From the NCBI RefSeq assembly GCF_001293685.1, contig NZ_BCAG01000003.1, positions 992,001-1,056,000 of the forward strand: a stretch of DNA of 64,000 bases, given 5' to 3'. The stretch's first letter is position 1. Every line of letters begins with the position of its first letter. The notes below the pieces were generated by a model. The model saw nothing but the letters and a program-made list of their open reading frames with translations, had not been told where the DNA came from and did no database searches. The translations under genes and the position numbers were made by a program. Shown here piece after piece: positions 23,972 through 54,782 of the stretch. Source of the stretch: Desulfatitalea tepidiphila. Lineage in GTDB: Bacteria; Desulfobacterota; Desulfobacteria; Desulfobacterales; Desulfosarcinaceae.

Positions 23972-24049
23972 GTCCCCATCGTCTAGCCCGGCCCAGGACA
24001 CCGGCCTTTCACGCCGGCGACAGGGGTTCGAATCCCCTTGGGGACGCCA
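23972..24049 (+). tRNA. tRNA-Glu (anticodon TTC), likely integration site
   Basis: Cloverleaf with acceptor GTCCCCA/TGGGGAC, anticodon stem CCGGC/GCCGG with loop CTTTCAC (anticodon TTC), T arm GGGG-TTCGAAT-CCCC, encoded CCA. An integrase gene ends 76 bp beyond, the usual position for an element integrated into a tRNA 3' end. Confidence 0.96.
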
Positions 24050-31952: not shown

Positions 31953-32420
31953 ATGGAATGGACAACAGTAAATTTCGGAAAGCACAAGGGGCTAACGATG
32001 CCCCAAATGATTTTCAAAGACGCGGACTGGTTTTTCTATGCGTACGAGAAGGGGTTCTTCAAGGGGGAACATGCCAGACAGGCTTACGAGCTCTACCGGC
32101 GGGCGCGGTCGATTAAGGTGCCGCCAAGAAATGGTCAGACGATGCTGGTCGAGTATGTTATTCACCATGATTTTCGAAAAGGAACCGATAAGTTTGGCAC
32201 CATGAGGCTGATTGCCGATGGGCCGGGACTTGAACGATTAAATGTCTCATCGGTAATCGATTTCTATATCCCAAGATCATATGCTTCGTACGATAAGACC
32301 GGCAACAAGAATTTTGTGGCGGCCCTCAAAGCGATCCTGTTCGGCAACCCATCGAAGCGGATGAAGCGGAAGGCCTGCGAGGACTTTTTCAACGATGATG
32401 ATAATTTTGATTTGCCCTGA
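31953..32420 (+). CDS. Hypothetical protein with DUF3820/ExoX-C-like N-terminus
   Basis: 155 aa. The N-terminal 30 residues (VNFGKHKGLTMPQMIFKDADWFFYA) look like the short domain found at ExoX C-termini and in DUF3820-like proteins. The rest is not recognised. AGGAGG lies about 11 nt before the ATG. It follows the primase gene by 76 bp and probably belongs to the same operon. Confidence 0.65.
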   Translation: MEWTTVNFGKHKGLTMPQMIFKDADWFFYAYEKGFFKGEHARQAYELYRRARSIKVPPRNGQTMLVEYVIHHDFRKGTDKFGTMRLIADGPGLERLNVSSVIDFYIPRSYASYDKTGNKNFVAALKAILFGNPSKRMKRKACEDFFNDDDNFDLP

Positions 32421-32480: not shown

Positions 32481-32810
32481 AGGTGTTTATAGGTGTTTTG
32501 AGGTGTTTAGGTGGGGGGTAAACACCTGCCTGGTGATGAAAAGGCACGAAACATGGCGTTTTTTACATTTAAGGTGGTAGAGGTGTTAAGGTGTTTACCT
32601 ATATTCCAGGAAATTGGGTTTCGGATTTTTTTTGAAGGGGATGTGGCGCCGGAGTGAACTTTTGGCCGTTACCGACTGTTTGGTTCAATCGACAAAACAG
32701 GGTAAACACCTAAACACCTTGGGTCATGGTGCTGTAACCTTTTGATTATCAATGGATTGCAGCCACTCAAGGTGTTTACCATGGTGTTAAACACCCATAA
32801 ACACCTTGGT
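32481..32810. repeat. AGGTGTTTA repeat module, copy 1 (plus extra inverted pairs)
   Basis: Three direct repeats in exact 10-bp phase start at 32481, 32491 and 32501. Then come 8 nt (GTGGGGGG), an inverted copy TAAACACCT (32519-32527), a 53-nt gap, and a tandem AGGTGTTA-AGGTGTTTA (32581-32597). A second block at 32702-32810 has at least six more copies in both orientations. It fills most of a 500-bp gene-free region (32421-32920) downstream of the primase operon and the 155-aa gene. The geometry is shared with copies 2 and 3. Candidate iteron origin or operator array. Confidence 0.85.
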
Positions 32811-32920
32811 TTGCCTGGTTTTGATGGGAAGTCCGGTGGCCGCTGTGAAAAAGCACCCGTTTTCAGATTCCGCGACTTTAAAATTGAACCCCCATCAGGA
32901 AAGTCGGTTTCATCAATAAT

Positions 32921-35900
32921 CTAAACATCCAATCTCGCGATGGGATCATTTAAAAACTTGTCGATTCTCCCCTTAACTTCATCTAAAAGCGGACCAGCTT
33001 CGGCGGATATATGGTCCAAATACCCTCTCCATCTATCAACTTCCTCGACCACTGCAGTAAAATTGCGGGATTTTACAAAAGTACTGATCAATTGAAAAAC
33101 GTCTTTAGCAGGCTTTTTGCCCCCCCATATCAATTCATGCTGACCAGGTTGAATGCCGGTTTCATCCACAGAGTATATTTTGCCAGTTGATTTTTGCAGA
33201 ATCAGATTTCGGCTGGCAGTGTCTCTAATTCCAAAAACCCATCTGAAACAGTAATTGACCATGACTGCAGTCCACATTTCCATATTTTCATCATTAATTT
33301 CGGTGAGATATTTGAAAGGATTGGGCACGATGTCATTCGAATCATAATTGAGCAAGATAAACGGGTGTGGTTCAATTTCAGTTTTCACAATCTCAACATC
33401 AGCTAAATCTGCCTTTCCTATTTCTTCGCATTCAAGAAATATTAAATCAGGGCCATATTCCTTTACTTCACATTGAATGGGATGCAAATATTTGGATTCC
33501 AATTTTCTTTTGACCTCGTTACAGATCACATGATCCAGTGCGCCTTTAGCATTTTTAAACGGCCCTTTCATGAATTTCCGGCTTCCATCCTTGAACTCGA
33601 CAATGAAGGCATAGGGTTTTTTCTGGGAGGTCCTCGATTGTGTGAGAACGGCCTTCGCGTAATCGAACGGTAACTGAATTAAAAATGAGCTTTGACGATT
33701 TTTAACAACCTCGATGATCTTTTTTGGAGTCTCAATCCCCATTTTTTCTGCCTGTAGGTATGCTTGTTCACCCTCTGTTTGCCAACTATTTTCAAATCTC
33801 TCATTTGCCACATATGCGGCCACTTCGAAAAAATGCTTTAACCCACGACCCATTCTTTTCCCTGTCGTGGTATGCCTGTCATAAGCATAATCGGGTATTT
33901 GTTCCTCTATTATCGGAGCTGATAAATGTTGATGAAAGCTGGTTTTATATTCCCCGTGGGTGTAATTGATATCTCGGCACAGCATAACAACACTTCCGAC
34001 TAACATTAACCGCTCACCACTTCTGACATGCTCCTTGACCCACCCTGAGATTAAATCTGAATTTTGACTCTTACTTCGCTCTTCGATCAAACTTATAATT
34101 TCTTTTTCATGCCCCATAAATGTATCAACAACTGTTGCGTAGTACACTGCCTGTCTTTCATCTTTCCTATTCAAGGCATCAACAAAACATTGGAGATACT
34201 CAGACACATTTTTACTAAAAGTTTCATTATGATAGATGTCATATAGAGTGATGAAAGATAGCATGGGGAGCAGTCTGCTTTTACAACTGATAACCTGAGC
34301 AGTCACCACTTGATCTATAATATCGAAGAGTTGCTGATCATTTTTGGCATCTTGCTTTTTGATATTTTTCTGTATTCGCAAGTTTTCAAAAGTATCGTAG
34401 CGCTCGCTTACGTATTCAACCATCGTTGGGTCCGCCAATCCAATATCCTCAGCGGAAATCATAAACAATCGATTCCAGAGCCAACCCGGCATACCTAATT
34501 CCAACATTTGTTTGGCATAATATCGAGCCAGATTAATTTCACATCGCCGAATAGCTTTTTGTACGACACTGACATAGACATAACCATCTTTCCAATTTTT
34601 CTTTTTTTCCCAGGCGTAGCAATAGAGACAACAGTTTTTACAGGTACCTTGACTACCAACATCATAACTCGGAATGCAGCGACACAGAGTCCTTTGCCCC
34701 GCATCGCTCAACCCTTTAATTTTATCGAGAAATGAAAGCAGATCCGCATTGGTGCTGGTACTGCGGATCAGATCATCATCAACGCATTTGTTTTGTATTA
34801 TTCTATAATCTGCGCTTAGTGCCGAAGAGCCTTCAGCACATGTGGCTAACTGGATGCCGTGTTGATTTGCCATTTGGACAATCGCATTGCAGATAAAAAG
34901 CTTGTCTTCCTGGGAAAATTCTTGAGTATTGATTCCAGCCTTTTTTAACTTGGTTTTGGCCTCATACTTTTCAGGATCCAGAAAACTGATCACCAATTTT
35001 TCAGTGTATCCAGCAACGTTTTGCATTATGGCGGCTACTTTATCGACAAGGTCTTGCCTGCTGATTTTATCCGCCAAAATCAACGGATCAAATCGCCAGA
35101 CAACTCTTTGCTTTCCGATTAAACAAGATAGCGAGCGGAATGTTGCGATTCTTTGCGCAAGCGGCGGGATATGAGGCTCGAGTTTGAGTGCATCATAATC
35201 ATTAAGGGTATAATTGAAATAATACTCGATACCCATCCGATCTATTTCATTGAGATGCTGCAGCAATGGTTCAGGGTTTTTAGTCCAGAAGACAATAAAT
35301 CGGGTTTTTTCGAATGAAACCGTATAATCCCTGCCCATGTGTTTAAACGAGACATGCCCCTGGCGTAGGGCGTTCATAAAATCATCGCTGAAATAGTTTG
35401 GGATGTCTGATCTTCTGGTGGCTGAGATTATGTATGGTGCATCGACCTCCGTTTCCCCTCCTTCTGCATCAGTGATTATTGCCTTTTCCCAGGGAATTTT
35501 GACCTTTTCGCCGGCTGTTTTCATTTTTTTCAGAACATCACTCTTCCACTTGATGAGTGCATTGCTCTCAAATGTGCCTTTGATTTTATTGAGGACGGGT
35601 GGCAGTTGATTGTGCTCAATCTTAATGATCTCATTTTTCAAATGTAAATCGGCCCCTTTTTTCATTTCGGTCAGATGATTCATCGTGCCGAGCCAGATAT
35701 TTTCCGTAATAAAGGGCTGGACATCATTGACCAGGGCCTCGATGTTCGGGGTATCGAGCATCGGCTCTATGCTCACTGATGTGCGAAAACCATGGTCAAA
35801 GGCATATTGTAAACTCTCCTTGCGTTCCTGGTAGCGCGGGGCGTTTGGCTCCCAGAATTGAAGGATTCGGTCATCCATGGCACCAATGGTAAATCTGAGC

Positions 35901-36970: not shown

Positions 36971-37063
36971 TTGATACCCCCTGTCTTAGATGATTTTCAC
37001 TATTCAAAATCATTTGTTTGTGGTTTTGCAAAGATGATACCAGCAGAAATAGTTGATGTATTA

Positions 37064-38840: not shown

Positions 38841-38845
38841 TATTA

Positions 38846-39449
38846 GATATAATTACGGCAGGTTAAATAGGCAGGACAAGGACAAGTCGCTTATGTAATT
38901 GACAATCTAAGACAATTTTTGGACGTTTTTTGGAAAGGATGGAGGGGGCGATTTTCAGTATTTTGAGCAATACTTCCGAAATTAGCGATAGGACGACATG
39001 GAGACTCGGGTTGCTGGGGAGAAATTGCAGTAAGAAACGGCCCGGAAGGCGAAAGATATCACAGGTCCACCGGCACGCTATTGAGGAATGGCATAAAATC
39101 GTGGATGTCAACATTTCCCCACTTTCTGGATGGACATAGCGTATGGAACGAGAACATTGCACTAAATCCGCTATCCCGCAATATTGAGCTTGCCCTGCAT
39201 TATAATTTTTTATACATTTCGGGCCGTATCACAAGTTTCAATTAACCATCGTCGAAGCGAAACCAAGAAACCAACCTTTTAAACCGTCGCACAGCTTCGC
39301 ATGTGTGGGCTTCCCAACAACCAAGTCATTGGTTCGCCCCTTCGGAGGCAAAACGCCGCAACGTTGCAATGCTTGAATGTCCATAGGTTTTCCCATATGA
39401 CTCGTTCATGCACACATCCAAACAGCAATGAATCAGCGAGGATTTGGCT
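38846..39449. other. Gene-free region between IS and cas6
   Basis: About 600 bp. Only short open frames without ribosome binding sites. It contains one copy of the CAACGTTGCA palindrome-core sequence (39359-39368) about 80 bp before cas6, where a promoter or operator for the cas operon is expected. Confidence 0.4.
39359..39368. repeat. CAACGTTGCA motif, copy 1 (upstream of cas6)
   Basis: Core of a GCAACGTTGC palindrome, followed by ATGCTTGAA. The same 10-mer recurs at 41793 (followed by GTCCTTGAA) and at 51605. All three flank CRISPR-Cas units. Confidence 0.5.
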
Positions 39450-40388
39450 ATGCACTATGGAAGCTACCAATTCAACTGTCGGTTTCAAAACGATGCTCGC
39501 TTACCCGTCTTTAAAGGGTCGACCCTTAGGGGCGTTTTCGGAAGGGCGCTCAAACAGGTGGTCTGCGCCCTGCGGCGGCAGGAGTGCCCCACCTGTCTGT
39601 TGAAAAAGCAGTGTCTTTATCCATCGGTGTTCGAACCCGAGTTGCTGGATGACACCGGCGTTTACGGAAAATCGGTGCCGCCACACCCCTTCGTGATCCA
39701 GCCCCCCGATGATGAACATGCTGACTATCCCAAAGAAGCCCCCTTCCAGTTCAATCTGCTGTTGTTCGGAGAGGCCAACATGCGACTGCCTTATTTCATT
39801 TACGCCATGGACCGCATGGGACGTATCGGCATCGGCAAACGCATCGACGGCGCCCGGGGCGCCTATCTGTTGGAATCGGTCCGGTGCAACGGCCTCACCA
39901 TCTACACCTCACGGGACCAGAAGATCAGCGAATCACCACCATTGGCGGCGCTTGCCCCTTATCCGGCCGGGCAAGACCATTCAAGCGCCGGCCGAACGAC
40001 CCTGACCTTTCACACGCCCTTGCGGCTCAAACACCAAAACCACCTCAGCACCGACTTGCCCTTTCATGTGCTCGTTCGGGCCATGTTGCGCAGAATCTCC
40101 TCTTTGATGGCCCATTTTAACGGCGGCGAACCACAACTCGACTACACCGGCCTGGTCCAACGCGCCCAAGTGGTGAAAACCGTCCAAAGCACCCTTGTTT
40201 GGGAAGATTGGCGCCGCTACTCCCTGCGCCAGGAACAGGCCATGCTGCTTGGCGGCCTGAAAGGCAGCATCACTTATGAAGGCGCGTTGGATGAATACCA
40301 GCCGCTGATCGATTTTTGCGCCAAAGTGCACCTGGGCAAGCAGACCACTTTCGGCCTGGGCCGCTACACCGTGGAGGCGGCCCCATGA
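39450..40388 (+). CDS. cas6: CRISPR endoribonuclease Cas6
   Basis: 312 aa RAMP-fold nuclease that cuts pre-crRNA within repeats. N-terminal FKGSTLRGVFGRALKQVVC with an ECPTCLLKKQC cysteine patch, and the C-terminal Gly-rich loop VHLGKQTTFGLGRYT typical of Cas6. The ATG at 39450 has GAGGA about 9 nt upstream. First gene of the type III locus; its stop overlaps the next ATG (ATGA). Confidence 0.88.
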   Translation: MHYGSYQFNCRFQNDARLPVFKGSTLRGVFGRALKQVVCALRRQECPTCLLKKQCLYPSVFEPELLDDTGVYGKSVPPHPFVIQPPDDEHADYPKEAPFQFNLLLFGEANMRLPYFIYAMDRMGRIGIGKRIDGARGAYLLESVRCNGLTIYTSRDQKISESPPLAALAPYPAGQDHSSAGRTTLTFHTPLRLKHQNHLSTDLPFHVLVRAMLRRISSLMAHFNGGEPQLDYTGLVQRAQVVKTVQSTLVWEDWRRYSLRQEQAMLLGGLKGSITYEGALDEYQPLIDFCAKVHLGKQTTFGLGRYTVEAAP

Positions 40389-41509
40389 AAAACATTCTGC
40401 TGGCCGTCGTCGGCCTCTCGCCCCAGGTGGTCACCGAAACCCTCTATGCCTTGCACCAGATGAACCGCCCGGTGCACACCATCCATCTGATCACCACGCG
40501 GGCCGGTGAAGAGATGGTATTGGCCCAGTTGCTCGGCGGCGGCAAAGGGGCTTTTTACCGCTTTTTGAAAGCGTACGGTCCGCCCAGCCACGGTATCGAC
40601 TTCGGTCCCGGCCACATCCATGTGGTCCGTGACGACCTCGGCGCCGAAGTCGATGACATCGAAAACGAATACGACAACGCCGCGCTGCTGGAAACCTGCA
40701 TGCGCCTGACCTTCGACTTCACCCGCGACCCCGATATCGCCGTCTTTTTCTCCATCGCCGGGGGCCGCAAGACCATGGGCGCCTGCCTGACCCTGGCCGC
40801 CCAGATGTATGCCAGACCCCAGGACCGGCTTTATCACGTGCTCGTCTCCCCGGAGTTCGAAAGCAACCGCGGCTTTTTCTTCCCGCCGGCCCAGCCCGAA
40901 ACCATCGAACTGAAAAACAAGCGCGGTGAGACCTACTTCAAAAGCACCAGCTACGCCAAAGTCAACCTGATCCACATGCCCTTTATTTCCATTCGCCCCC
41001 AACTGGCCCCCGAAGTGCTGGACCAGCCCAGAGACCCGGCCACGCTCATGCTTTCGCTCATTCGGGAGACACCCGAACAACTGCTGGTTCACTTAAAGGA
41101 CGGCAAGCTGCGCTATCGCGGCATGGAGATGGACATGGCGCCCGGCCGGTTGGCGCTCTATGCCTTTTTCGCCTTGCTCAAAAAAGAGTGCCCCGCGCCG
41201 GAACAAAAATGCAAAGCCTGTGACCAGTGCTTTGTGGACCACGAAGGCGTCAGCCGCAGACAGCCCGAGATCACCAGACTCTACAAACAGATGTGCGGCA
41301 CCCGGCCGACCGGGGAGATGAGCACCACCGGTATTCTGAACCTGAACCTGGACAATTTCAAAAGCCTGAAGTCCCATATCAAACGGAACTTGCTCCAGGG
41401 CTTCGGCCCCTTGGCCGCGGAAAAGCTCGAAATCGCCTCGGTCGGGAAAAAACCCTACACCCGCTACGGCCTACTGATTGACAAAGCGGTGATCGAATTG
41501 GTGATGTGA
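40385..41509 (+). CDS. CARF-domain CRISPR protein, NE0113 type
   Basis: 374 aa. It begins ILLAVVGLSPQVVTETLYAL and has TTRAG and FFSIAGGRKTMGA, the marks of the NE0113-type CARF family, which senses or degrades cyclic oligoadenylate. Members are often named Csm6 or ring nuclease. I see no Rx4-6H HEPN motif; the C-terminal half instead has CKACDQC, perhaps zinc-binding. Coupled to cas6 by ATGA. It may switch off signalling started by Cas10. Confidence 0.78.
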   Translation: MKNILLAVVGLSPQVVTETLYALHQMNRPVHTIHLITTRAGEEMVLAQLLGGGKGAFYRFLKAYGPPSHGIDFGPGHIHVVRDDLGAEVDDIENEYDNAALLETCMRLTFDFTRDPDIAVFFSIAGGRKTMGACLTLAAQMYARPQDRLYHVLVSPEFESNRGFFFPPAQPETIELKNKRGETYFKSTSYAKVNLIHMPFISIRPQLAPEVLDQPRDPATLMLSLIRETPEQLLVHLKDGKLRYRGMEMDMAPGRLALYAFFALLKKECPAPEQKCKACDQCFVDHEGVSRRQPEITRLYKQMCGTRPTGEMSTTGILNLNLDNFKSLKSHIKRNLLQGFGPLAAEKLEIASVGKKPYTRYGLLIDKAVIELVM

Positions 41510-41857
41510 GCCTGAAGATTCAAGATTATTTCGGTCGGCAAGAAGTGAATGGCCGCCGGTGTTCAACGCGGGTGTTTATAAAGATCATCGTGGGAAAGCA
41601 CGCGCAGCAGAAGGATATCCGCGGACCAGTCCGGATTGCCCCCCGGCAGATGGGCACCTTGTTCGATATGGTGTGAGCATAATGACAAAAAGCGAAAACG
41701 TCAATTACGGAAATTTCGTATTGTATGCACACAGGCGCCCCCCCGCCCCCCGATCTTTTGGGGGAGAGGGTCGGGGGTGAGGGGGGAAATGACAACGTTG
41801 CAGTCCTTGAACAATATGATGCCCCACAAATAGGATGGCGCATCGAAAGGAGATGAT
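41510..41857. other. Intergenic region with G/C-run repeat and CAACGTTGCA copy 2
   Basis: 348 bp without a convincing gene. At about 41730-41790 is a C-run/G-run sequence (GCCCCCCGAT, then GGGGGAGAGGG and a run of G) that can form a hairpin and resembles widespread intergenic repeats. The CAACGTTGCA motif lies at 41793-41802, about 56 bp before cas10. On the minus strand an open stretch (about 41567-41685) ending LLLRVLSHDDLYKHPR may be a gene remnant. Confidence 0.4.
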
Positions 41858-44329: not shown

Positions 44330-44339
44330 AGGAGGGATT

Positions 44340-44750
44340 ATGAGCTATTTCGATTCTACCGGCAAGCACATCCGGCCCGAACTCCTCGATGAGGAGGCGC
44401 AGCAAGTCGCCAGTCGGTTTGTCCAGACACGCGACGGCCGACCCAACGAGCGCGATTCCATCAAAAACTCCCAGCTCAGGCGTTTTTTTAACGAATTCAA
44501 AACCTTGGAAAGGCAACTCCACAGCACCCAGGGCAATGAGGAAGAGGCGTTCAAATCCATCAAACCTCTGGTTAAAATGACTCATGCCAAGGTGGAGTAT
44601 GCCAAGGCCCGCAGGGTGGTCCCACAAGCCTTTGTCGACTGGTTGAAGAACAATGTCCTGGCCATCGAAACAGCAAAGGACTTCAAGGCCTTCTTGCTGC
44701 ACTTCGAGGCCGTCGTCGGTTTCTGTTACGGGTTGAATCCAAAAGATTAA
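44340..44750 (+). CDS. csm2: Type III-A small subunit Csm2
   Basis: 136 aa helical protein of the Csm complex minor filament. LRRFFNEFKTLERQL and VKMTHAKVEYAKAR fit the Csm2 family, as does the position between csm1 and csm3. GGAGGG lies before the ATG. Confidence 0.9.
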   Translation: MSYFDSTGKHIRPELLDEEAQQVASRFVQTRDGRPNERDSIKNSQLRRFFNEFKTLERQLHSTQGNEEEAFKSIKPLVKMTHAKVEYAKARRVVPQAFVDWLKNNVLAIETAKDFKAFLLHFEAVVGFCYGLNPKD

Positions 44751-44764
44751 GGAGGAAAATGGAT

Positions 44765-45466
44765 ATGCAGCTTCAAGCGATCAAAAAAATCACAGGAACC
44801 ATCACCGTGTTGACGGGTTTGCATATCGGGGCCGGCAAGGAGAGCCTCGAAATCGGCGGCCTCGACCAACCCATCATTAAAAATCCTTTGACGGGTGAAC
44901 CCTACATTCCGGGGTCCTCCATCAAGGGCAAGATGCGCTCACTATTGGAGACCTCGCGCTACATGCAAACCAATCCGGAGACAAGGGATTATGTCATGGG
45001 CAAGAAGGACAAGAGCGGGCGCGGCATGGCCTGTGGATGCGCCCGAAAAGGATGTCCGGCATGCACCATCTTCGGCACCTCCGCCGCCGAGAAGGGACCT
45101 GACCTTGGCCCTACCCGATTGATAGTGCGTGACGCTTTTCTGACCGAAGAATGGCGGGAGCGTTTCGGTCGGGGTGAACTGGCCATGGAAGTCAAATATG
45201 AAAACACCATCGACCGTGTCCGGGGGGTGGCCGAGCATCCCCGCCCGCTGGAGCGCGTGCCGGCCGGTGTTGCGTTCAGCTTTCACCTGTCGTTCAAGGT
45301 TTTTGAGGACGATCCGCCGACGTTGCTTGAAGATGTGTATCGCGGGTTACACCTCATCGAACTCGATGCCCTGGGCGGGAATTCGTCGCGAGGGTGCGGG
45401 CAGGTCCGCTTCGACAATCTGCATTGCGATCAAGACAAAATTGATCTTATGGCATATCCGCTTTAG
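44765..45466 (+). CDS. csm3: Type III-A backbone RNase Csm3
   Basis: 233 aa RAMP protein that forms the backbone and cuts target RNA every 6 nt. LTGLHIGAGKESLEIGGLDQ holds the catalytic Asp region (GGLDQPI), followed by YIPGSSIKGKMRSLLE and a C-terminal GGNSSRGCGQV Gly-rich loop. A start two codons earlier (44759) is too close to GGAGG, so 44765 is preferred. A CACARKGCPAC-like Cys patch (about 80-95) may bind zinc. Confidence 0.95.
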   Translation: MQLQAIKKITGTITVLTGLHIGAGKESLEIGGLDQPIIKNPLTGEPYIPGSSIKGKMRSLLETSRYMQTNPETRDYVMGKKDKSGRGMACGCARKGCPACTIFGTSAAEKGPDLGPTRLIVRDAFLTEEWRERFGRGELAMEVKYENTIDRVRGVAEHPRPLERVPAGVAFSFHLSFKVFEDDPPTLLEDVYRGLHLIELDALGGNSSRGCGQVRFDNLHCDQDKIDLMAYPL

Positions 45467-45475
45467 GAGGACCCA

Positions 45476-46453
45476 ATGGCGCTATACAGATATCGCCTGA
45501 CACCGCTTTCGGCCTTCGCCACGCCCTTGCGCAGCGACACCCTTTACGGTCATCTGCTCTGGGCCGCGGCCATGCTGCATGGCAAGGCGCGGGTCAACTC
45601 ACTTATCGAGGCCTTTGCCGCTGGCTCGCCGCCATTTATTTTTTCCAGCGCATTGCCGGCCGGTGGACTTCCATTTCCAGTGCTCCCCGGTATTGCCCGC
45701 GGTCGTTTCAAAGCGCAATTTGCCGACACGGGCAGTCTGTTTGAACAGTTGCGCGCATTAAAGTCGTTTCGCAAGCAAACCCATTGGCATTTAGAGCAAT
45801 GGCAATGCCTTGAGGGGCGCATCAGTCAGGAGCGCTTGTTCACCGAATGGCTGGTGGCCAAGGCCGGGCGGAAGGCACAAAAGCAACCAGCAAAATTTAA
45901 CCCGGATGCGACAACCGTCTATCAACCGCATGTCAGCATCGACCGACTCAGTGGCAGCGTGCTTCAAGAGGGTGGCCTCTTTTTTTCCAGCGGCACCTGG
46001 TACCGTCCGGGTCTGGCCCTCGATCTGTATGTCGAAACCGCTGACCTTGATACTTTTGAAACCCTTTTCCGGCACGTGGAAACCGTGGGGTTCGGTGCTG
46101 ATCGCACCACCGGCAAGGGGCAGTTCAAATTCGAGCGTGATAATACCTTTGATCCGGCCCCCTTTCTCGCCGAAGGCACTCATCGGCTCTCCCTTTCGGT
46201 ATGCGCGGCCATGGACATGCGTTCTTTCGAAGGCTATTGGATTCCGTTCGTCAAGCATGGACGTGCCTGGAACGGTTTCGGTGAAAGCAATCCCTACAAA
46301 AAGCCGTTTATGGCTTTTGCCGAGGGCAGCCTTTTCAAACGAATGCCGAAAAGTGGCTACCTGCTTCGAAACATACATAGTGACCCGGGAATCGTTCAAG
46401 TCTGCTGGCCTTTGACGATCCCCGTTACCCTGGAGGAAAATCATGCGGACTGA
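45476..46453 (+). CDS. csm4: Type III-A RAMP protein Csm4
   Basis: 325 aa. It binds the crRNA 5' handle and Cas10. FATPLRSDTLYGHLLWAAA is the family N-terminus, and GFGADRTTGKGQF is the Gly-rich loop. GGAGGACCCA precedes the ATG. It overlaps csm5 by 11 bp. Confidence 0.92.
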   Translation: MALYRYRLTPLSAFATPLRSDTLYGHLLWAAAMLHGKARVNSLIEAFAAGSPPFIFSSALPAGGLPFPVLPGIARGRFKAQFADTGSLFEQLRALKSFRKQTHWHLEQWQCLEGRISQERLFTEWLVAKAGRKAQKQPAKFNPDATTVYQPHVSIDRLSGSVLQEGGLFFSSGTWYRPGLALDLYVETADLDTFETLFRHVETVGFGADRTTGKGQFKFERDNTFDPAPFLAEGTHRLSLSVCAAMDMRSFEGYWIPFVKHGRAWNGFGESNPYKKPFMAFAEGSLFKRMPKSGYLLRNIHSDPGIVQVCWPLTIPVTLEENHAD

Positions 46454-47951
46454 CTTTTTTAAGGTGGATCTTCTATCACCTGTCCACATCGGCACCGGGG
46501 ATGAGTTGGACCCCATGAGCTATCTCATGCGCAAAGAAAACGGCGCAATAAATTGCCATGTTCTCGACACCAACGCCTGGGCCAGAGAATATCCCGATCC
46601 CGCGGAACTGAGCACCCTGTTTTCAGGTACCAATGTTCCGGCCATGCGTGGGTTTCTTGCCAATCACATTGAGCCAGCTCTTTTTGGCACGCGGCGATTG
46701 TTGATCAAAAATCCAAAGATTTATGATGAATACATGCAAAAGCTGTCCGATCAAAGGACCAGCCATCAATTGCTCTTCAGTCCTCATACCACTTGTGCGG
46801 ACCGGATACCCCTGATACCCGGCTCCTCGCTCAAAGGCAGTCTGCGTACCGCCGTTATCGATTGGCTGGACCGTGAGAAGCGTTTGGGGCTGAAAGAGGC
46901 CAGAGAAAAGGACCGCAAAGGCCTGGAATATATCAGACGCCTTGAAAGCGCACTTGGCCCGGTAACGGATAGCGCCTTTAAGCAGCTCAAAGTAGGTGAT
47001 GTCAGCGGCTATTCAGACAGCACATGTTTGGTGCAACCCCTTGAACTGCGGCGTAAGCAAGAAAAATCCGCCACCCCGAAAAGCATGTGTGAGGTGTTGC
47101 CCAGCCGGCTTCTTGGGGAAGAAGGGCGATCGATTCTATTTCTTAAAATCGGACTTGGTTCACCGCTCAAAGCCGCCGACAACCGACTGACACTGAAAAA
47201 TGGTGTCAGTTGGACCTGGACTGAATTGTGCGAATTGGTGACCAGCTATTACCGGTTGCGTTTCGAAGAGGAGAAAACCAAATTCTATGGGCTTTCCCAT
47301 TTCGCCCCGGCAAAACCCGCAATGGAAAGCCTCGAAAAAGAATTCAATACCGCGCCGGGACAAATGGTGTTGCGGGTCGGGCATTATTCACAGGTTGAAT
47401 TCGTCACCGTCCGCAACAACAAACCTTTTACGCGCAAAGGTAAACAGGGCACTCCCATGCCCTATGGCACTACCAGGACCCTTGCCGACGGCCTGTACCC
47501 CTTTGGATGGATCAAGCTCACGCCGTGCAGCGAAAGTGAATACCGAAAGGGGAGCATCGCCTGCGAAGCCGCAAACAAAGCTTCTGAGCAGGAGCGGATC
47601 GTCCGGCGCCGGGCGCTGGAGGCGGAACGTACGCAGCGGCTTGCGGAAACCCGTGATCGTGAAGAAGAAGCCCACCGCCAGGCCGAACGCGAACGCCGAC
47701 AGCAGGCGGAATTGGAGGCATTGCCGGAAGATGAACGCAATGTGCTCTTGTTGGAAAGAGGCGATCTTGACGAGCAGCGGATTTCAGCGCTGGTTCAAAA
47801 AATCGACTCATTCGATCCGCAGCTGCAAGTCAAGGCGGCCAAAGCCTTGAAGGAGCTCTGGATCAGCCAGAAGCGCTGGACGAAAAAAGAGTGCTCTAAA
47901 AAGCAGCTTATAAAAGTCGCCGCAATAAAAACGATTTTAGGTGAAATATGA
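46443..47951 (+). CDS. csm5: Type III-A RAMP protein Csm5 with coiled-coil tail
   Basis: 502 aa. VDLLSPVHIGTGDELDPMSY and IPLIPGSSLKGSLRTAVIDW are Csm5 marks. After about residue 375 is a long charged coiled coil (about 380-425, Arg/Glu/Ala-rich) and a helical C-terminus not needed for the RAMP fold, making it longer than typical Csm5 (about 350-400). GGAGGAAAATC precedes the ATG. Confidence 0.93.
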   Translation: MRTDFFKVDLLSPVHIGTGDELDPMSYLMRKENGAINCHVLDTNAWAREYPDPAELSTLFSGTNVPAMRGFLANHIEPALFGTRRLLIKNPKIYDEYMQKLSDQRTSHQLLFSPHTTCADRIPLIPGSSLKGSLRTAVIDWLDREKRLGLKEAREKDRKGLEYIRRLESALGPVTDSAFKQLKVGDVSGYSDSTCLVQPLELRRKQEKSATPKSMCEVLPSRLLGEEGRSILFLKIGLGSPLKAADNRLTLKNGVSWTWTELCELVTSYYRLRFEEEKTKFYGLSHFAPAKPAMESLEKEFNTAPGQMVLRVGHYSQVEFVTVRNNKPFTRKGKQGTPMPYGTTRTLADGLYPFGWIKLTPCSESEYRKGSIACEAANKASEQERIVRRRALEAERTQRLAETRDREEEAHRQAERERRQQAELEALPEDERNVLLLERGDLDEQRISALVQKIDSFDPQLQVKAAKALKELWISQKRWTKKECSKKQLIKVAAIKTILGEI

Positions 47952-47997
47952 TCTCTTTATTGGTGAGAACACCGGCACGAAAGGCATTGATATATCC

Positions 47998-49245
47998 ATG
48001 ACGCTATCCACAGATATCCGCCTGATGATCGTCTCCCTCGGCGGATCACCCGAACCGATCCGCTTGAGCATAGGGCGCTACCGGCCCGAACAGGTGATCT
48101 TTTTTGCCTCACATGACTCGGCGGCGCTGGCCGGTGAAACCCTGGCCGCGCTGGACTACAAACCCCGCCTGGCCTTCGAGATCACCGAAGATCCCAACTC
48201 CTTGCTGGAGTGCTTTCGCAAGGCCCGGCAATGTGTCCAGCGCGCCCGCATAAGCGGCTTGGCACCGGACCGGGTCATGTTGGACTACACTGGCGGCACC
48301 AAGGTCATGACCGCGGCCCTCCTGCTGGCCGGCATCGATCAGCGTTACCATTACAACTACGTGGGCGGCGACCGGCGGGACAAAGAGGGCGTGGGCGTGG
48401 TGCTCAGCGGCCACGAGCGCCTCTTCACCGAAATGAGCCCTTGGGCGGTATGGGCCGAGGAGGAGCGGCGCCAGATCGTGACCCTTTTCAACCGGCGCCG
48501 CTATGCGGCGGTCATCGAAATCATCGATGGCCTGCTGGAGAATGATCTGCCGACATCCATCGGCGGTTATTTTAAATTCGTGCGTCAGGCGGCTTATGCC
48601 TTCCTGCGATGGGACCAGTTCGAACTCAAGCAGGCCATGGGCCAACTGCAAAAAGCACAGGATCTGCTGGCCGCCCACCGCCGTGATTTTCCCAACGCCG
48701 AACTCGATGCCTTCCGGGACGAACTCGGCCTGCTCAGCATGCGTCTGGAGGATATCCTAACGCAGACCAAGGACCTCATGGAGCCCCATCCGCTGCTCGT
48801 GGCGGACCTGCTCAACAATGCCCGGCGCCAGATGGCCGACAAGCGCAACGATGACGCCGCGGCCCGCATCTACCGCGCCCTGGAACTATACGGTCAAATT
48901 TGCTTCCGGCAATCGACGGGACTGGACAATGACGCGGTGCCACCGTCCGCCGTGCCGGCTGAAATTCGGGCAGAGTTCGAAGCCAAATACAGGGATACGA
49001 AAACACAAAAGCTCAAACTGCCCCTGCAAGCCACCTTCCGCTTTCTGAGACACAGCGGGCATGAGGCCGGCGAACGCTTTCAGGCCCGCCAAAATGAGAT
49101 AAAAAAAATTCAATCCAATCGCAACCACTCGATCCTGGCCCACGGGTTGAAACCCGTAAGCGATAAAGCCGTTGAATCGGTTTTCGCGACCGTTGCGGCG
49201 TTTTTGGAATTTTTGGACCCTTATGATTTTCCGCAGCTACCATAG
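47998..49245 (+). CDS. csm6: Csm6-like CARF-HEPN ribonuclease (TIGR02710 type)
   Basis: 415 aa ancillary RNase activated by cyclic oligoadenylate. N-terminal CARF: LMIVSLGGSPEPI and DYTGGTKVMTAALLLAG. C-terminal HEPN with NRNHSILAHG, fitting R-x(4-6)-H. An in-frame GTG at 47941, overlapping csm5 by 11 bp, would add 19 unusual residues; ATG 47998 fits the CARF start better, but neither has a strong ribosome binding site. Confidence 0.85.
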   Translation: MTLSTDIRLMIVSLGGSPEPIRLSIGRYRPEQVIFFASHDSAALAGETLAALDYKPRLAFEITEDPNSLLECFRKARQCVQRARISGLAPDRVMLDYTGGTKVMTAALLLAGIDQRYHYNYVGGDRRDKEGVGVVLSGHERLFTEMSPWAVWAEEERRQIVTLFNRRRYAAVIEIIDGLLENDLPTSIGGYFKFVRQAAYAFLRWDQFELKQAMGQLQKAQDLLAAHRRDFPNAELDAFRDELGLLSMRLEDILTQTKDLMEPHPLLVADLLNNARRQMADKRNDDAAARIYRALELYGQICFRQSTGLDNDAVPPSAVPAEIRAEFEAKYRDTKTQKLKLPLQATFRFLRHSGHEAGERFQARQNEIKKIQSNRNHSILAHGLKPVSDKAVESVFATVAAFLEFLDPYDFPQLP

Positions 49246-49541
49246 CCGCTGAAATGGGCTCTTTGACAATTCGTATCCCTTTTCAAGACACGGTTCAATG
49301 CCCCGGCAACCGCTTGCGCGCCGGCCGGGGCACATATAAGGTGTATTTCCAAGGTTTGGCGGGATGATCAGAACGCATAGAAGGAGGTGCGTGGAAATGA
49401 AAATTAAAAAAAATTTCAAGAAGATAGATTTAATATCAAGGGGCATTCAGCGCGACGGCCGTTTCCCGGAAGCCGATTTCGGGCATGTGCGTGGATTTGC
49501 CATCGTAACGAACCGGAAGCTTTGTGGAAACTGAGGGGGCA
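49246..49541 (+). promoter_or_regulatory. CRISPR leader region
   Basis: 296 bp between csm6 and the first repeat. It has a TTGACA at 49263-49268 and a strong hairpin TGCCCCGG/CCGGGGCA (49299-49332). A GGAGGTG-led 45-codon frame ends 7 bp before the array. The array is oriented for transcription from this side. Confidence 0.6.
49397..49534 (+). CDS. Possible 45-aa peptide encoded in the CRISPR leader
   Basis: Translation starts MKIKKNFKKIDLISRGIQRD and ends NRKLCGN. AAGGAGGTG lies 8 nt before the ATG, a near-ideal ribosome binding site. It is basic at the N-terminus and resembles no family I know. It could be a real leader peptide or the remnant of a displaced gene. Confidence 0.35.
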   Translation: MKIKKNFKKIDLISRGIQRDGRFPEADFGHVRGFAIVTNRKLCGN

Positions 49542-51555
49542 ATCTGAAGAACTGACCCGATTAGAGGGGATTGAGACATCTCGACATAGACCGAAGGGAT
49601 CACCGTTTTGATCTCAAATCTGAAGAACTGACCCGATTAGAGGGGATTGAGACCCATGTAGATTGTGTCGCGGATTGGTTTCATTGATCCGATCTGAAGA
49701 ACTGACCCGATTAGAGGGGATTGAGACATGATCCAGGCCCAGGCGGCCGTTGCGATGATGGCATCTGAAGAACTGACCCGATTAGAGGGGATTGAGACAC
49801 CTTCTTCGGTCCGTCTTCGACCACCTCGCGCTTAATCTGAAGAACTGACCCGATTAGAGGGGATTGAGACAAGGTGGCCCTTGATTATGTCGATTGGGTC
49901 TTCGATTTATCTGAAGAACTGACCCGATTAGAGGGGATTGAGACATCCAGCTCGGATCTACGGTTTCAAGATGGGATTTTATCTGAAGAACTGACCCGAT
50001 TAGAGGGGATTGAGACCTGATGAGTTTTCGCAGATCGTCAGAAACCTTGATTTCATCTGAAGAACTGACCCGATTAGAGGGGATTGAGACTCAATAGCTA
50101 TCTCCGGTCGCTTCGGGCGGGGAAGACGGATCTGAAGAACTGACCCGATTAGAGGGGATTGAGACGTGATGGTGCGCGGCTTTTGTTCCTGGCGTGATTC
50201 GTATCTGAAGAACTGACCCGATTAGAGGGGATTGAGACTTTAAACTTCCCCGGGCAAATGATTTTGCATTCATCCGATCTGAAGAACTGACCCGATTAGA
50301 GGGGATTGAGACAATATGGTCACACGGATAGGATCACGACGTTTACCATATCTGAAGAACTGACCCGATTAGAGGGGATTGAGACAGGTTGGCACCGCTC
50401 AGGTAGGCACCGCGCAGGTTGGCATCTGAAGAACTGACCCGATTAGAGGGGATTGAGACCCTTTCGCTGACTGGCATCGTTGATTGCATTTGCTTTCATC
50501 TGAAGAACTGACCCGATTAGAGGGGATTGAGACATATTCATGGTTTTCACAAGATGAAATAACACTTTCAACATATCTGAAGAACTGACCCGATTAGAGG
50601 GGATTGAGACTCTTTATTTGCCCACAAAACAAATTTTACTATATCAGATCTGAAGAACTGACCCGATTAGAGGGGATTGAGACTCAAAGAGTTGATGGTC
50701 GGTGAAGTCTGTGGTAATTGTATCTGAAGAACTGACCCGATTAGAGGGGATTGAGACTTTAGGGCTTCTTTTATGGCGTTCTCGCAGCCGTTGAAATCTG
50801 AAGAACTGACCCGATTAGAGGGGATTGAGACTTTAGGGCTTCTTTTATGGCGTTCTCGCAGCCGTTGAAATCTGAAGAACTGACCCGATTAGAGGGGATT
50901 GAGACCTAAAAAAGCAAGCCAATGTCAAGTAAAATCTTACTCATCTGAAGAACTGACCCGATTAGAGGGGATTGAGACTCCTTTCCTCCAAAAAATGTTG
51001 GCAAATCCTCATCGGTATCTGAAGAACTGACCCGATTAGAGGGGATTGAGACGTGGTGGCGTTCTGCTTAAAGTGCTGAAACAATGCAATCTGAAGAACT
51101 GACCCGATTAGAGGGGATTGAGACTACCTCCCCATAGCGTTAAAGATTTCCCAAACGATATCTGAAGAACTGACCCGATTAGAGGGGATTGAGACCAATC
51201 CACGGCTCTCCAAAACGTAAGACCAGGACGATCTGAAGAACTGACCCGATTAGAGGGGATTGAGACACTTATGCCGTGGCGATCCCGGCTATCAACGCTG
51301 AGAATCTGAAGAACTGACCCGATTAGAGGGGATTGAGACTCTTCATCCCGGCGCTTCATGTTCTGCCCGCGCATATCTGAAGAACTGACCCGATTAGAGG
51401 GGATTGAGACTTAAAGATTTCGTACCAAAACCAGGCCCAGGCCGATCTGAAGAACTGACCCGATTAGAGGGGATTGAGACACATTTGTGGTTTCATCTGT
51501 TACCCTCCATAGCCTTTAAATCTGAAGAACTGACCCGATTAGAGGGGATTGAGAC
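49542..51555 (+). CRISPR. Type III-A CRISPR array, 28 repeats, 27 spacers
   Basis: A 36-bp repeat starting ATCTGAAGAACTGACCCG and ending GGGGATTGAGAC occurs 28 times; every copy I read is identical. Spacers are 34-41 bp, mostly 35-39. The 3' end ATTGAGAC would be the 8-nt crRNA handle left by Cas6, so transcription is on the plus strand, away from the csm genes. Spacers 17 and 18 (50758-50795, 50832-50869) are identical. The last repeat is not degenerate. No cas1 or cas2 nearby. Confidence 0.98.
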
Positions 51556-51602
51556 CAGCGCAGCGCATCCTTATCACTGCCTGACGATCTTCGGCGAAAA
51601 AC

Positions 51603-51624
51603 GGCAACGTTGCAATCGTTGCCA
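51603..51624. repeat. CAACGTTGCA motif, copy 3, in a hairpin after the array
   Basis: GGCAACG and CGTTGCC form a 7-bp stem here around TTGCAAT, about 50 bp past the last repeat. The CAACGTTGCA core is at 51605-51614. Confidence 0.45.
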
Positions 51625-51695
51625 ACCGGTGTGCCTCCCTCGTAGGATCGCCCTCATGGAGATCATGATGTTGGATTTCAACAAGGAGGTGGCCC

Positions 51696-52004
51696 ATGAA
51701 GGGTGCATTTGACAAGTTGGCCGACCCCGAGATTTTCTACTCCAGCGAGGGCGACCCGGTAGCCACATTCAACCTGGCCTTCAGGTCATCCAAGAAAAAG
51801 ACCGGCTGGATCAAGATCACCTGCTTTCAAAAGCTGGCAGAAATCACCGAACGTCATCTGCACAAAGGCGCCCGGATCGCCGTGGCCGGCATCTTGGAAC
51901 AGAACAAGTGGGAAACCGATGAAGACGCCGCCCGCACATCGATCCAGCTCATTGCTAATACCATCGAGTTTATCAAAACAGACGGCATCCGCCACACCCA
52001 ATGA
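51696..52004 (+). CDS. Single-stranded DNA-binding protein, short divergent form
   Basis: 102 aa OB-fold protein: GDPVATFNLAFRS, GWIKITCFQKLAEITERHLHKGARIAVAGIL and the end IEFIKTDG fit SSB. The usual first strand (MINKVILIGNLG) is replaced by MKGAFDKLADPEIFYSSEG, so the N-terminus is atypical. No acidic C-terminal tip. GGAGGTGGCCC precedes the ATG. Paralogous to the SSB at 54929. Confidence 0.85.
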   Translation: MKGAFDKLADPEIFYSSEGDPVATFNLAFRSSKKKTGWIKITCFQKLAEITERHLHKGARIAVAGILEQNKWETDEDAARTSIQLIANTIEFIKTDGIRHTQ

Positions 52005-52117
52005 TTTTTTATTGTTGATTGTACTTGGCAACCATAAAAATATCTGCTCAACAGGGATTGCAAACGTTTGGAATCCTCCGGCAATTCGCAGAATGTTGAC
52101 AGAAACGACAACCAATT

Positions 52118-52233
52118 AGGTGTTTAGGGTGTTTTGAGGTGTTTAGCTGGAGGGTTAACACCTAATAAATGGGTTATTGCATTGTTTTATTTATGAAGAT
52201 TTGATTCGATTATTTAGGTGTTAAGGTGTTTAG
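52118..52233. repeat. AGGTGTTTA repeat module, copy 2
   Basis: Three direct repeats start at 52118, 52128 and 52137, followed by 8 nt (CTGGAGGG), an inverted TTAACACCT (52155-52163), a 52-nt gap, and the tandem AGGTGTTA-AGGTGTTTA (52216-52232). Same order and spacing as copy 1. It lies in the 504-bp gene-free region (52005-52508) between the first ssb and the PEP-CTERM gene. Confidence 0.85.
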
Positions 52234-52445
52234 GGCGATTTCGGCTGTTGGATTATTATTCTCGCATCATAGGCTCGAACATACCTGAAGTCCTCACCCG
52301 AATTGATTGGGCGGAAATTAACATCGTTAAAATTACTATTTTCTTTTCAATCTAATAATATCCTAATAATGATATGACATTAACGCATGATAAAATAGCC
52401 TAAAGCTGGGTCCTTTGCTGCCCTGAACCTTTTGGAAACAGAAAG

Positions 52446-52486
52446 CCCGAATGAGGAGCATGGTGCTCTTGATTCGGGTTTTTTTT
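52446..52486 (+). terminator. Intrinsic terminator or attenuator before the PEP-CTERM gene
   Basis: CCCGAAT (52446-52452) pairs with ATTCGGG (52472-52478), with an inner GAGCA/TGCTC stem, followed by eight T. It lies 23 bp before the ATG of the next gene, so it could end upstream transcription or act as an attenuator. Confidence 0.7.
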
Positions 52487-52508
52487 ATTCTTACCAGAGG
52501 AGACAGAA

Positions 52509-53282
52509 ATGAAACGGATTGCATTGATGGTAGTTGTAGGGGTTTTCTTGTTTTCTGGAATAGCTAACGCTGCTTTGACACTGATAGGTACGGCCAGCTA
52601 TGACAGCGACGGTAATGGTACCCCTGAAACCTATAACCTTATCCATATGGACGACGGCCCGTTCGGCCCTATCACCTGGCTGGATTATACGAAAGAAGGT
52701 GATAACTGGCAGAACCAGATGAATTGGGCATCCGGGCTGAGCTTCGCAGAAGCAGATATTCAATTGAATCCCGGCTACAAGTCGAGCATTGACTGGAGCA
52801 CGGGGTGGCGGCTGCCGGAGACCGATGAGAGCCAGGCCAACCTGAGCGGCGGTTTCGGCTATGAGGGACCAGACGGGAACGGGTACCACGATTACATGTA
52901 TGGTTACAACATGGTCAACTCAGAGATGGGTCAACTGTATTACGAAGAGTTGGACAACAAGGGATACTATGCAACCGACGGCACGAATCCACAACCCGGC
53001 TGGGGGCTAAATAACACAGGTGATTTCAATTACTTGCAGGCCTACAACTACTGGTCGGGTACGGAGTCTTCTCCGTACGACGCGTGGAACTTCAACTTCA
53101 ACGTCGGCAGCCAGGGCAGCTACAATAAGGGCGGCCACCTCATCCCCTACGCGTTAGCGGTTCGCCCGGGCGATGTCTCCGCCGTTCCTGTGCCCGGCAC
53201 GGTGCTGCTTCTGGGAACTGGCCTTGCGGGTTTGGGGGTCTTTCGTCGGGGTCAAAGGCGGAGACATTGGGTCATTGGGTGA
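52509..53282 (+). CDS. Secreted PEP-CTERM-type protein with DUF1566-like domain
   Basis: 257 aa. N-terminal signal peptide MKRIALMVVVGVFLFSGIANA. The mature part has a DUF1566/Lcl-like pattern (TGWRLPETDESQ; YNYWSGTESSPYDAWNFNF). The C-terminus has a VPVPGTVLLLGTGLAGLGVF helix then Arg-rich residues, a PEP-CTERM sorting signal read by an exosortase. GAGGAGACAGAA precedes the ATG. Likely surface or exopolysaccharide-associated cargo. Confidence 0.85.
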   Translation: MKRIALMVVVGVFLFSGIANAALTLIGTASYDSDGNGTPETYNLIHMDDGPFGPITWLDYTKEGDNWQNQMNWASGLSFAEADIQLNPGYKSSIDWSTGWRLPETDESQANLSGGFGYEGPDGNGYHDYMYGYNMVNSEMGQLYYEELDNKGYYATDGTNPQPGWGLNNTGDFNYLQAYNYWSGTESSPYDAWNFNFNVGSQGSYNKGGHLIPYALAVRPGDVSAVPVPGTVLLLGTGLAGLGVFRRGQRRRHWVIG

Positions 53283-53439
53283 TTTGCGTGATTTGGTTAT
53301 TTGGGGGTGCAGGGGGGTAAATTTTTTCATTATTAAGGCAATTTATTCTTGCTGGCTATGTGATTTGCCTTAGATCGATCATAACATTTTCGAAATGTTT
53401 ACCAGATCCAATATGCCTCAGTGAGAAGGGAAAAAAGAA

Positions 53440-54267
53440 ATGAAAAGCATCTTATTATTATGTCTCTTTTCACTATTTTATTACTGCCCTGTTTCAGCTA
53501 ATTTGAATGACGGCCTGGTAGCTTACTACCCTTTTAATGGGAATGCTATTGATGAAAGTGGTAATGGTAATCATGGAGAGGTATTTGGAGCAAGTTTGTG
53601 CCCGGATAGACACAATACTAATTATAGTGCTTTCAGTTTTGATGGGATTGATGATTGCATTTTTGTGGGTAGCAGTAGTGAAAGCAGTATCAATATTTCA
53701 GGTGCAATTTCAATTTCAGTCTGGGTAAAGCCAAGTGAAATTCCAGATGGAAAGAAAATGATAATAGGAAAATCGAATTATTCGTATTATACCAATTACA
53801 TTCTTAGATACGTTGGCGGCGGTTTGCAGTGGGAATATGATCAATGGAACAATACTGTAGATAAAGTATTAGAAGTTGATGCCTGGAATCACATTGTCGT
53901 AACCGCAGACAATCCTATTGGTTTAAAAAAAATTTACATTAATGGAGATTTAGTTTATTTTAAAACGATAACTACGATGCACTCCCATGGGTTAGTAGTT
54001 GACTATCCCTTAACTATTGGATGTGCATGGTACACCCCTCCGTTTCCTCCGACGACAGAGAATTTTGGAGGCCAAATTGATGACATACGCATTTACAACC
54101 GTGTCCTCTCAGAAGAAGAAATCAATCAGCTGTTTGGAGAACCCGGATCTATAAGTGTGCCTGCCCTATCCGGATGGGGCATGATCATACTTTTTGCACT
54201 TCTTCTGGTATTTGGATTTATGGTCGTGATGAGAAGAAACGTGAGTCTCAATACAAACATAACCTAA
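53440..54267 (+). CDS. Secreted LamG-domain protein with IPTL-CTERM-like anchor
   Basis: 275 aa. Signal peptide MKSILLLCLFSLFYYCPVSA, then a concanavalin/LamG fold (GLVAYYPFNGNAIDESGNGNHG, FDGIDDCIFVG, FGGQIDDIRIYNRVLSEEEI). The C-terminus VPALSGWGMIILFALLLVF plus RR is an IPTL-CTERM-type anchor. Markedly AT-richer than the cas genes, suggesting separate acquisition. Confidence 0.85.
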   Translation: MKSILLLCLFSLFYYCPVSANLNDGLVAYYPFNGNAIDESGNGNHGEVFGASLCPDRHNTNYSAFSFDGIDDCIFVGSSSESSINISGAISISVWVKPSEIPDGKKMIIGKSNYSYYTNYILRYVGGGLQWEYDQWNNTVDKVLEVDAWNHIVVTADNPIGLKKIYINGDLVYFKTITTMHSHGLVVDYPLTIGCAWYTPPFPPTTENFGGQIDDIRIYNRVLSEEEINQLFGEPGSISVPALSGWGMIILFALLLVFGFMVVMRRNVSLNTNIT

Positions 54268-54654
54268 CGAATAAGAATAGATCATGAGAGCGCAGCGAAC
54301 AACGATCTTATCCTGTGGAACAAGTGCTATGATTCTTTAGCACTGAATCAAAAAATAGAGTTTAATCCTATTAAAAAAGAAGTACAGAACTCGATATTCT
54401 ATATGCGCACGGATGTGAGGAATGTCCGGTTCATTTCTCGCTTTTCTGTTTTTGGCCGCCTCCACAATATCTGGTGGTGAGCCATTTATTAAAAGGTGGT
54501 GGGAAAAATTATCTTTACATATGTGCCGCTTGTAAAAACGTAGAGTAATCACACGCAATTTGGACTTCCGAAAATTCGTAGATACAATACCAGGCTCAAA
54601 TTGAGACGCAATCGATTCAACAGACCGGTAACATACAATTTAGTTGTATAATTC
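54268..54654. other. Gene-free region before repeat module 3
   Basis: A 73-codon minus-strand frame (54337-54558) exists but has no ribosome binding site or recognisable similarity. Nothing else is seen. The repeat module and then ssb follow. Confidence 0.35.
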
Positions 54655-54660
54655 CACGCA

Positions 54661-54782
54661 AACACCCTAAACACCTTAACACCTGCTCGAAGATCACCAA
54701 CAACCGATTGAATATATGCCATTTATTTCCAAAAATAGGTGTTTACCCCCTGCCTGAACACCTATAAACACCCTAAACACCG
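54661..54782. repeat. AGGTGTTTA repeat module, copy 3 (inverted)
   Basis: Read on the minus strand it has the same order as copies 1 and 2: three direct repeats (about 54780-54752), an 8-nt G-rich spacer GCAGGGGG, an inverted copy (54745-54737), a 52-nt gap, then the tandem AGGTGTTA-AGGTGTTTA (54684-54669) plus one more GGTGTTT. It lies about 150 bp upstream of the second ssb. Confidence 0.85.

Follow-up and report, generated by a model that had tools for sequence, protein, structure and literature searches.

Iteron plasmids carry short repeated initiator sites near the initiator gene, with iterons that run in the same direction and are often accompanied by DnaA boxes, and the alpha protein of phage P4 combines priming, unwinding and iteron binding. 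Phage-inducible chromosomal islands (PICIs) have a size of about 15 kb. A study of PICI replication (PMC6092414) locates the origin of Gram-positive PICIs directly 3' of the initiator gene (pri-rep), describes the E. coli PICIs as always having two iteron sets that flank an AT-rich region, and found Pri-Rep-ori segments to replicate autonomously; according to it, this origin organisation is shared by no other known bacterial replicon. Here, we analysed a stretch of 64,000 nt from the 5.6-Mb genome of Desulfatitalea tepidiphila (G000:C3:992001-1056000; hereafter the window, to which plain coordinates refer), in which an integrated element of ~44.2 kb carries four iteron modules (M1 to M4) arranged as two facing pairs, M1/M4 and M2/M3. 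The pair M1/M4 is very probably a PICI-type origin of the element, served by its primase-helicase, with M2/M3 as a second such pair.

Iteron modules and the primase-helicase gene

Each module consists of direct copies of the iteron, a spacer of 9 nt, one inverted copy, a gap of set length, and a tandem pair whose copies are 8 bp apart. In the first pair, M1 (32481..32597, + strand) is the left iteron set and has three direct copies, the 9-nt spacer, the inverted copy, a gap of 53 nt and the tandem pair. It is faced across 105 bp (32598..32702, 53% AT; a candidate opening site by analogy only) by the mirrored right set, M4 (32703..32806, - strand), which has two good direct copies, a gap of 50 nt and the tandem pair AGGTGTTTAGGTGTTTA. 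The second pair consists of a left set, M2 (52118..52232, + strand), in which the second direct copy has two mismatches to the 9-mer, and a right set, M3 (54668..54782, - strand); both have a gap of 52 nt, and they face each other across 2435 bp. An earlier note on this DNA had described three such modules, all of which are present, and had overlooked M4; its gaps of 53, 52 and 52 nt agree with those measured for M1, M2 and M3, whereas the spacer that it gave as 8 nt and G-rich has 9 nt throughout and is not G-rich in M4. With at most 1 mismatch, the iteron AGGTGTTTA was matched 35 times in the window, compared with 8.43 ± 2.77 times in 100 shuffles (largest 15); 22 of the 35 matches and all 13 exact copies fall in the four modules, and the remaining 13 near-matches fit the shuffle range.

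Across the whole genome, the tandem pair (≤ 2 mismatches) was found at 8 places, namely the four modules of the window, two further full modules and two weak matches without a module; the reversed pattern, used as a control, was found at 0 places. The further modules, at C1:1022123 (M2-like) and C3:20885 (M3-like), both lie within copies of the ssb region, which match the window with 91% identity over 570 bp and 90% over 7.0 kb, and the homology between M2 and its C1 copy continues for 57 bp beyond the tandem pair. With 8 places that include two full modules outside the element, the motif is not scattered over the genome, as the earlier note had asked to be checked, but this element is not its only site. 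The C1 and C3 copies belong to sister elements or fragments (G000:C1:1001123-1040000 and G000:C3:20000-30200; loci L012, L013 and L011), which carry a related integrase and a large serine recombinase (both recognised by eye) besides the ssb-region copies with single modules; one of them also holds a helicase-only paralog without a module at C1:1004995.

M1 starts 60 bp past a gene for a 155-residue protein of no known family (31953..32420, + strand), which lies between the primase gene and M1, and the pair M1/M4 is situated between the 3' ends of convergent frames (stops at 32420 and 32921). This position bears on a shared operator, the other role offered in the earlier note, in which a regulator bound to the iterons would control the primase, the ssb genes and genes nearby. 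M3 lies 146 bp upstream of ssb2 (54929..55273, + strand) and M2 113 bp 3' of ssb1 (51696..52004, + strand), as an operator might, but M1/M4 fits the idea poorly because, between two 3' ends, it precedes no gene, and neither facing sets nor the match in layout to P4 and satellites described below would be expected of an operator. We therefore regard an operator as very improbable, with an added role of this kind possible for M3. The 52-nt gap inside the modules was also considered as an AT-rich melting site and was dropped, as only M2 stands out: its gap has 79% AT, a value reached by 0.4% of the 52-mers of the element, compared with 65% AT for M3 (7.6% of the 52-mers), the latter figure being 25% for M1 and M4.

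The primase-helicase (29045..31876, + strand; 943 residues) is most likely the initiator. It comprises a DnaG-type zinc ribbon, a DNAG_N domain, a weak toprim match, a P-loop half (GHHGSGKS) and a winged helix predicted at residues ~790-870. The last of these assignments draws on AlphaFold2 models of C-terminal blocks, with a predicted local distance difference test (pLDDT) score of 73-90 over residues ~795-864, on HTH_24 matches in two of eight family members and weak repressor/MarR sequence matches at the same position, and on weak resemblance to CggR, MarR and SmtB folds in a Foldseek search of the C-terminal domain, in which the best match was DNA-bound CggR (E 6e-3) and none reached E ≤ 0.001. 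No SF3, D5 or VapE family was matched by Pfam in the eight family members.

Conservation of the layout in relatives

A search for homologues of the primase-helicase gave 15 positive genomes among 379 of the order (E 1e-20) and 6 among 395 of the phylum (1e-40), the own genome being counted in both, and no homologue in viral contigs. Among plasmids, positions 29045-32900 had no DNA match; at the protein level 73 plasmid and 51 phage records matched, none of them over 80% of the protein. Of 389 genomes of the order, only 3 contain the 155-residue gene, and these are the same 3 that show the geometry pattern (13 places) among 30 genomes of the family, the reversed pattern being found in 0 of 30. 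The gene is shared with a Desulfatitalea (record of UBA4791) and Desulfosarcina widdelii. A facing pair stands directly after it in D. widdelii and in two contigs of genome G003, with tail-to-tail distances of 103 bp in the former and 105 and 104 bp in the latter, against 105 bp in the window. In D. widdelii, a single module was additionally found ~3 kb upstream of an ssb gene whose product is 77% identical to that of ssb2 over 106 residues, with a transposase-like frame in between; together with the single modules on C1 and C3, this indicates that module halves travel with the ssb region.

Three relatives have more divergent primase-helicases. In G361 (49% identity), where AGGTATAAAGG replaces AGGTGTTTA, the modules face a stretch with 83% AT, and all three modules have the tandem pair 8 bp apart and a gap of 52 nt. 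In G605 (40% identity), a facing pair surrounds 807 bp with 77% AT, and both modules have a gap of 38 nt. A single, weaker module with a degraded inverted copy, assigned by eye and missed by the letter-free scans, lies 194 bp 3' of the helicase gene in G728 (51% identity). G361 and G605 likewise have their modules 3' of the helicase gene; the small 155-residue gene intervenes in three cases, namely the window, G003 and D. widdelii. Two sets facing a centre are thus present in the window (M1/M4), twice in G003, and in D. widdelii, G605 and G361, with one set in G728.

The earlier note had also proposed that the spacings be checked in related elements, and the outcome does not refute its reading. 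Among 21 modules, which were placed by motif strings chosen after viewing the sequences and include near-identical, hence not independent, copies (G003, C1, C3), the gap is 50-53 nt in 19 and 38 nt in the 2 of G605, while the spacer is 9 nt in 15, 8 nt in 2, 19 nt in 1 and 28 nt in 3. The spacing is therefore largely kept while the sequence changes, above all within each element. A letter-free scan of 3' flanks found the layout in 6 of 9 helicase-bearing loci, the window included, whereas 100 shuffles of each of these loci gave 0 hits; the 3' flanks of 14 loci matched only over the primase half, a control set without L091, which belongs to the G361 gene as its primase half, showed no such layout. 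Judged by eye, the 23 stretches from genome contigs that fitted the geometry pattern comprised 6 of this module type, 7 of a type seen in Prevotella and 10 due to chance; in viral contigs the pattern matched 19 stretches, all of which lacked a cluster of ≥ 4 copies.

Two further observations concern helicase genes of relatives. In G002, a tandem duplication with an offset of ~383 bp (168 identities in the first 180 bases) was seen at L078:1-560, near a helicase-type gene. Three plasmid loci (L107:2438-6625, L108:2744-6156 and L109:2732-6669) hold Toprim-helicase genes whose products are 26-30% identical to the helicase half encoded in the window, preceded by a helix-turn-helix gene, followed by a tyrosine recombinase, and located near RHS, filamentous-hemagglutinin or immunity-type genes.

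Comparison with PICI satellites and phage P4

For comparison with described systems a wider scanner was used, which accepts any 7-mer and requires two direct copies, an inverted copy, a gap of 30-60 nt and a tandem pair at 7-12 bp. It returned the four modules alone in the window (0 of 6 shuffles), the annotated ori alone in the 11.6-kb P4 record (0 of 30 shuffles) and, in two Streptococcus satellites taken from the 537 phage records that match P4 alpha (Javan614 and Javan564), only matches in the intergene directly 3' of the gene annotated as 'DNA primase'. In Javan614 (≤ 1 mismatch), copies at 6130+, 6141+ and 6163-, a gap of 38 nt and a pair at 6208+ and 6216+ face, across 67 bp with 87% AT, a pair at 6291- and 6299-, another gap of 38 nt and copies at 6344+, 6356-, 6366- and 6377-. 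In Javan564 (≤ 1 mismatch), copies at 6961+, 6969+, 6980+ and 7002-, a gap of 48 nt and a pair at 7057+ and 7065+ are followed by 72 bp with 85% AT and by copies at 7145-, 7197+ and 7220-, one copy of the right-hand tandem pair being degraded. This layout is that of M1/M4 with other letters.

The element shares with these PICIs an origin-like region 3' of the primase or replication gene, two mirrored sets that face a centre, the composition of each set (direct copies, inverted copy, gap and tandem pair at 8-bp pitch), and an integrase with an excisionase-like protein. It differs from PICIs in its ~44 kb, in its type III CRISPR-Cas cargo, in a DnaG-type primase joined to a helicase half of no named family, and in the 155-residue gene between initiator and origin; unlike the two satellites, it has an M1/M4 centre with only 53% AT, two facing pairs, gaps of 50-53 rather than 38-48 nt and a shorter spacer. 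Among the scanned proteins of the element (a subset of its open frames) there was no terminase or capsid-morphogenesis match, the sole 'virion structural protein' match being a lectin-fold IPTL-CTERM cargo protein. M1/M4 thus appears to belong by layout with PICI-type origins, whereas the element itself is not established as a PICI, because of its 44 kb and the lack of such matches; a missing terminase match alone does not exclude one, since terS is present in only some PICIs (PMC6092414). The mirrored sets with inverted copies also set it apart from iteron plasmids, with which it has in common the short repeated sites near an initiator gene. No publication linking Desulfosarcina with iterons was found in the open-access library that was searched.

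The P4 ori resembles the modules in having three direct copies (type-1 repeats annotated on one strand at 9310, 9320 and 9331), one opposite copy (9353), a gap and a pair (9396 and 9406), and the repeat letters are alike (GGTGAACA against GGTGTTTA). In both, repeats occur 3' of the primase gene (crr in P4) as well as far away from it (ori). P4 differs in the pitch of the pair (10 bp at ori and 9 bp at crr), in its ori gap of 35 nt, in having two crr repeats that are direct and do not face each other, and in a helicase half without detectable homology to that of the element. The resemblance raises the alternative of a P4-like division of labour, in which M1/M4 would be a crr-like helper for a true origin at M2/M3, or vice versa, with both required. 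In P4, where type-1 repeats make up crr as well as ori, crr directly follows the 3' end of alpha and ori lies ~2 kb beyond the start of that gene, and the single D. widdelii module ~3 kb upstream of an ssb gene would suit such a division. PICI origins 3' of pri-rep, however, suffice for replication (PMC6092414), M2 and M3 are separated by 2.4 kb and have their C1 and C3 counterparts as single modules, and no site other than that 3' of the helicase gene is seen on the contigs of G361 and G605, which are short. On balance a division of this kind seems unlikely. A centromere-like partition site, bound by ParB or a ribbon-helix-helix protein, could also account for iteron-like arrays at several places of one element, but no partition protein was found among the scanned proteins of the element (again a subset of all) and the layout matches origins, so that we consider it extremely improbable.

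If M1/M4 is a PICI-type origin, the primase-helicase would bind both iteron sets through its C-terminal winged helix, open the centre by melting it, load itself and prime synthesis. Two helicase rings loaded facing each other would lead to bidirectional replication of the excised circle, by analogy with PICI Pri-Rep and P4 alpha. For M2/M3, which lie 2.4 kb apart with cargo between them, three roles are conceivable: a second origin whose centre took up an insert, a helper site that is needed in cis and acts at a distance, as crr does in P4, or a mere relic. The iteron-type origin proposed in the earlier note is well supported by the position 3' of the primase-helicase operon, by a layout kept in G361 with changed letters, and by the match to P4 and the satellites.

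Several observations weigh against a PICI-type origin served by this protein. The M1/M4 centre has an AT content close to that of the element (51%), and its best 30-mer (67% AT) is equalled or exceeded by 10% of the 30-mers of the element, so that the AT-richness typical of PICI origins is weakly expressed here. Between the helicase half and either P4 alpha or VapE, homology could not be detected (hhalign probability 1.5 and 2.8, respectively), a result obtained with P4 alpha as a single sequence and compatible with distant kinship, and the model of the full-length primase-helicase (pLDDT 36) is informative only around the winged helix. Two of the 9 helicase loci, the own C1 paralog (42%) and G002 (39%), are without a module, and the module of G728 depends on assignment by eye. 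As to the scans, the wider one found 4 unrelated places in 691 kb of loci, not counting the P4 ori and modules of the present or the Prevotella type (27 loci overlapping covered ones were left out and the window was scanned separately), it missed P4 crr as well as modules with fewer than two direct copies, e.g., in L038, L044 and L046, and a looser scan that preceded it produced one spurious hit in the control locus L079. The satellite comparison covers two of the 537 phage records.

The integrated element and similar modules in Prevotella

The element extends from 24.0 kb of the window to ~68.26 kb and is bounded by 46-bp attachment (att) repeats at a tRNA-Glu gene. The left repeat, attL (24004..24049, + strand), coincides with the 3' end of tRNA-Glu, and an identical attR lies in the right flank (L009:4214-4259, equivalent to window ~68214-68259). 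A tyrosine integrase adjoins attL (24125..25180, - strand; PHROG integrase, E 6.4e-37), and the start of its frame is overlapped by that of a small excisionase-like protein (25014..25352, - strand), for which the best excisionase family had E 1.7e-06 and the top match overall was 'DNA binding protein' (E 7e-07). Just past attR, a second tyrosine-recombinase-like frame was recognised by eye (L009:4345-5250), which suggests tandem accretion of elements at the tRNA-Glu site. GC skew over the window and the right flank gave no clear origin signal.

The genes follow in the order TGT-like, primase-helicase, 155-residue protein, M1/M4, CRISPR-Cas cargo, ssb1, M2, PEP-CTERM pair, M3 and the ssb2 run, the last consisting of ssb2, a 344-residue protein, PD-(D/E)XK, UvrD and DUF932. 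The TGT-like protein (queuine transglycosylase superfamily; 27298..28581, + strand) has counterparts at the corresponding place, upstream of the primase gene, in G003 (97% identity) and G361 (35%). The cargo at 39444-51557 comprises type III-A CRISPR-Cas genes and then a long repeat array, which by self-BLAST covers 49541-51557 with a period of ~74 bp and stops ~140 bp before ssb1; ssb1 is without the leader that precedes ssb2 and its C1 copy. Two PEP-CTERM/IPTL-CTERM-type genes (52509..54267, + strand) lie in the interval enclosed by M2 and M3.

Modules of the same topology were seen at both ends of small elements in Prevotella/Xylanibacter, with their tails pointing outward (L028:5664-7273, L050:2098-3691, L037:1860-3520, L036:5474-5905 and L048:2335-2571). 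L037 encloses a VapE-like AAA+ gene (Pfam), L028 and L050 hold a stretch with 71% DNA identity to that gene, and two of the five elements are short and resemble miniature inverted-repeat transposable elements. Homology of the flanks ends at or beside the tandem pair, and no clear target-site duplication was seen in these elements. If such an element closed into a circle, its ends would form a facing pair as in M1/M4.

Ends of this kind, and the cargo between M2 and M3, would also be expected if the modules were recombinase sites, with cargo moving between facing copies as in recombination or transposition. In the window, however, integration is explained by the tRNA-Glu att repeats and the integrase, far from the modules, the homology between M2 and its C1 copy does not stop at the tandem pair, and the spacing of the M1/M4 type is 103-105 bp in four loci with no gene in between. 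Modules as recombination ends are therefore given a slim chance only, and M1/M4 as an origin remains our preferred reading.

A broader idea, which we put forward tentatively and hold to be somewhat doubtful, is that one origin grammar (mirrored sets of direct copies, inverted copy, fixed gap and 8-bp pair) is common to elements whose initiators lack detectable common descent, i.e., PICI satellites, P4 (one set), large Desulfobacterota elements and the tiny VapE elements of Prevotella (at both ends). The spacing, rather than the letters of the repeats, would then reflect a constraint of helicase loading, and the origin centre would serve as a site of cargo insertion and of element integration, which would make the present element a two-origin composite. 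As the iteron letters changed in G361 and the spacing stayed, the family offers natural variants for learning which spacing the initiator reads. The 8-bp-pair layout in large integrative elements of sulfate reducers with a differently built initiator would either widen the class of PICI-type origins or show convergence on one loading geometry, and the letter-free layout would provide a way to seek the origins of uncharacterised elements.

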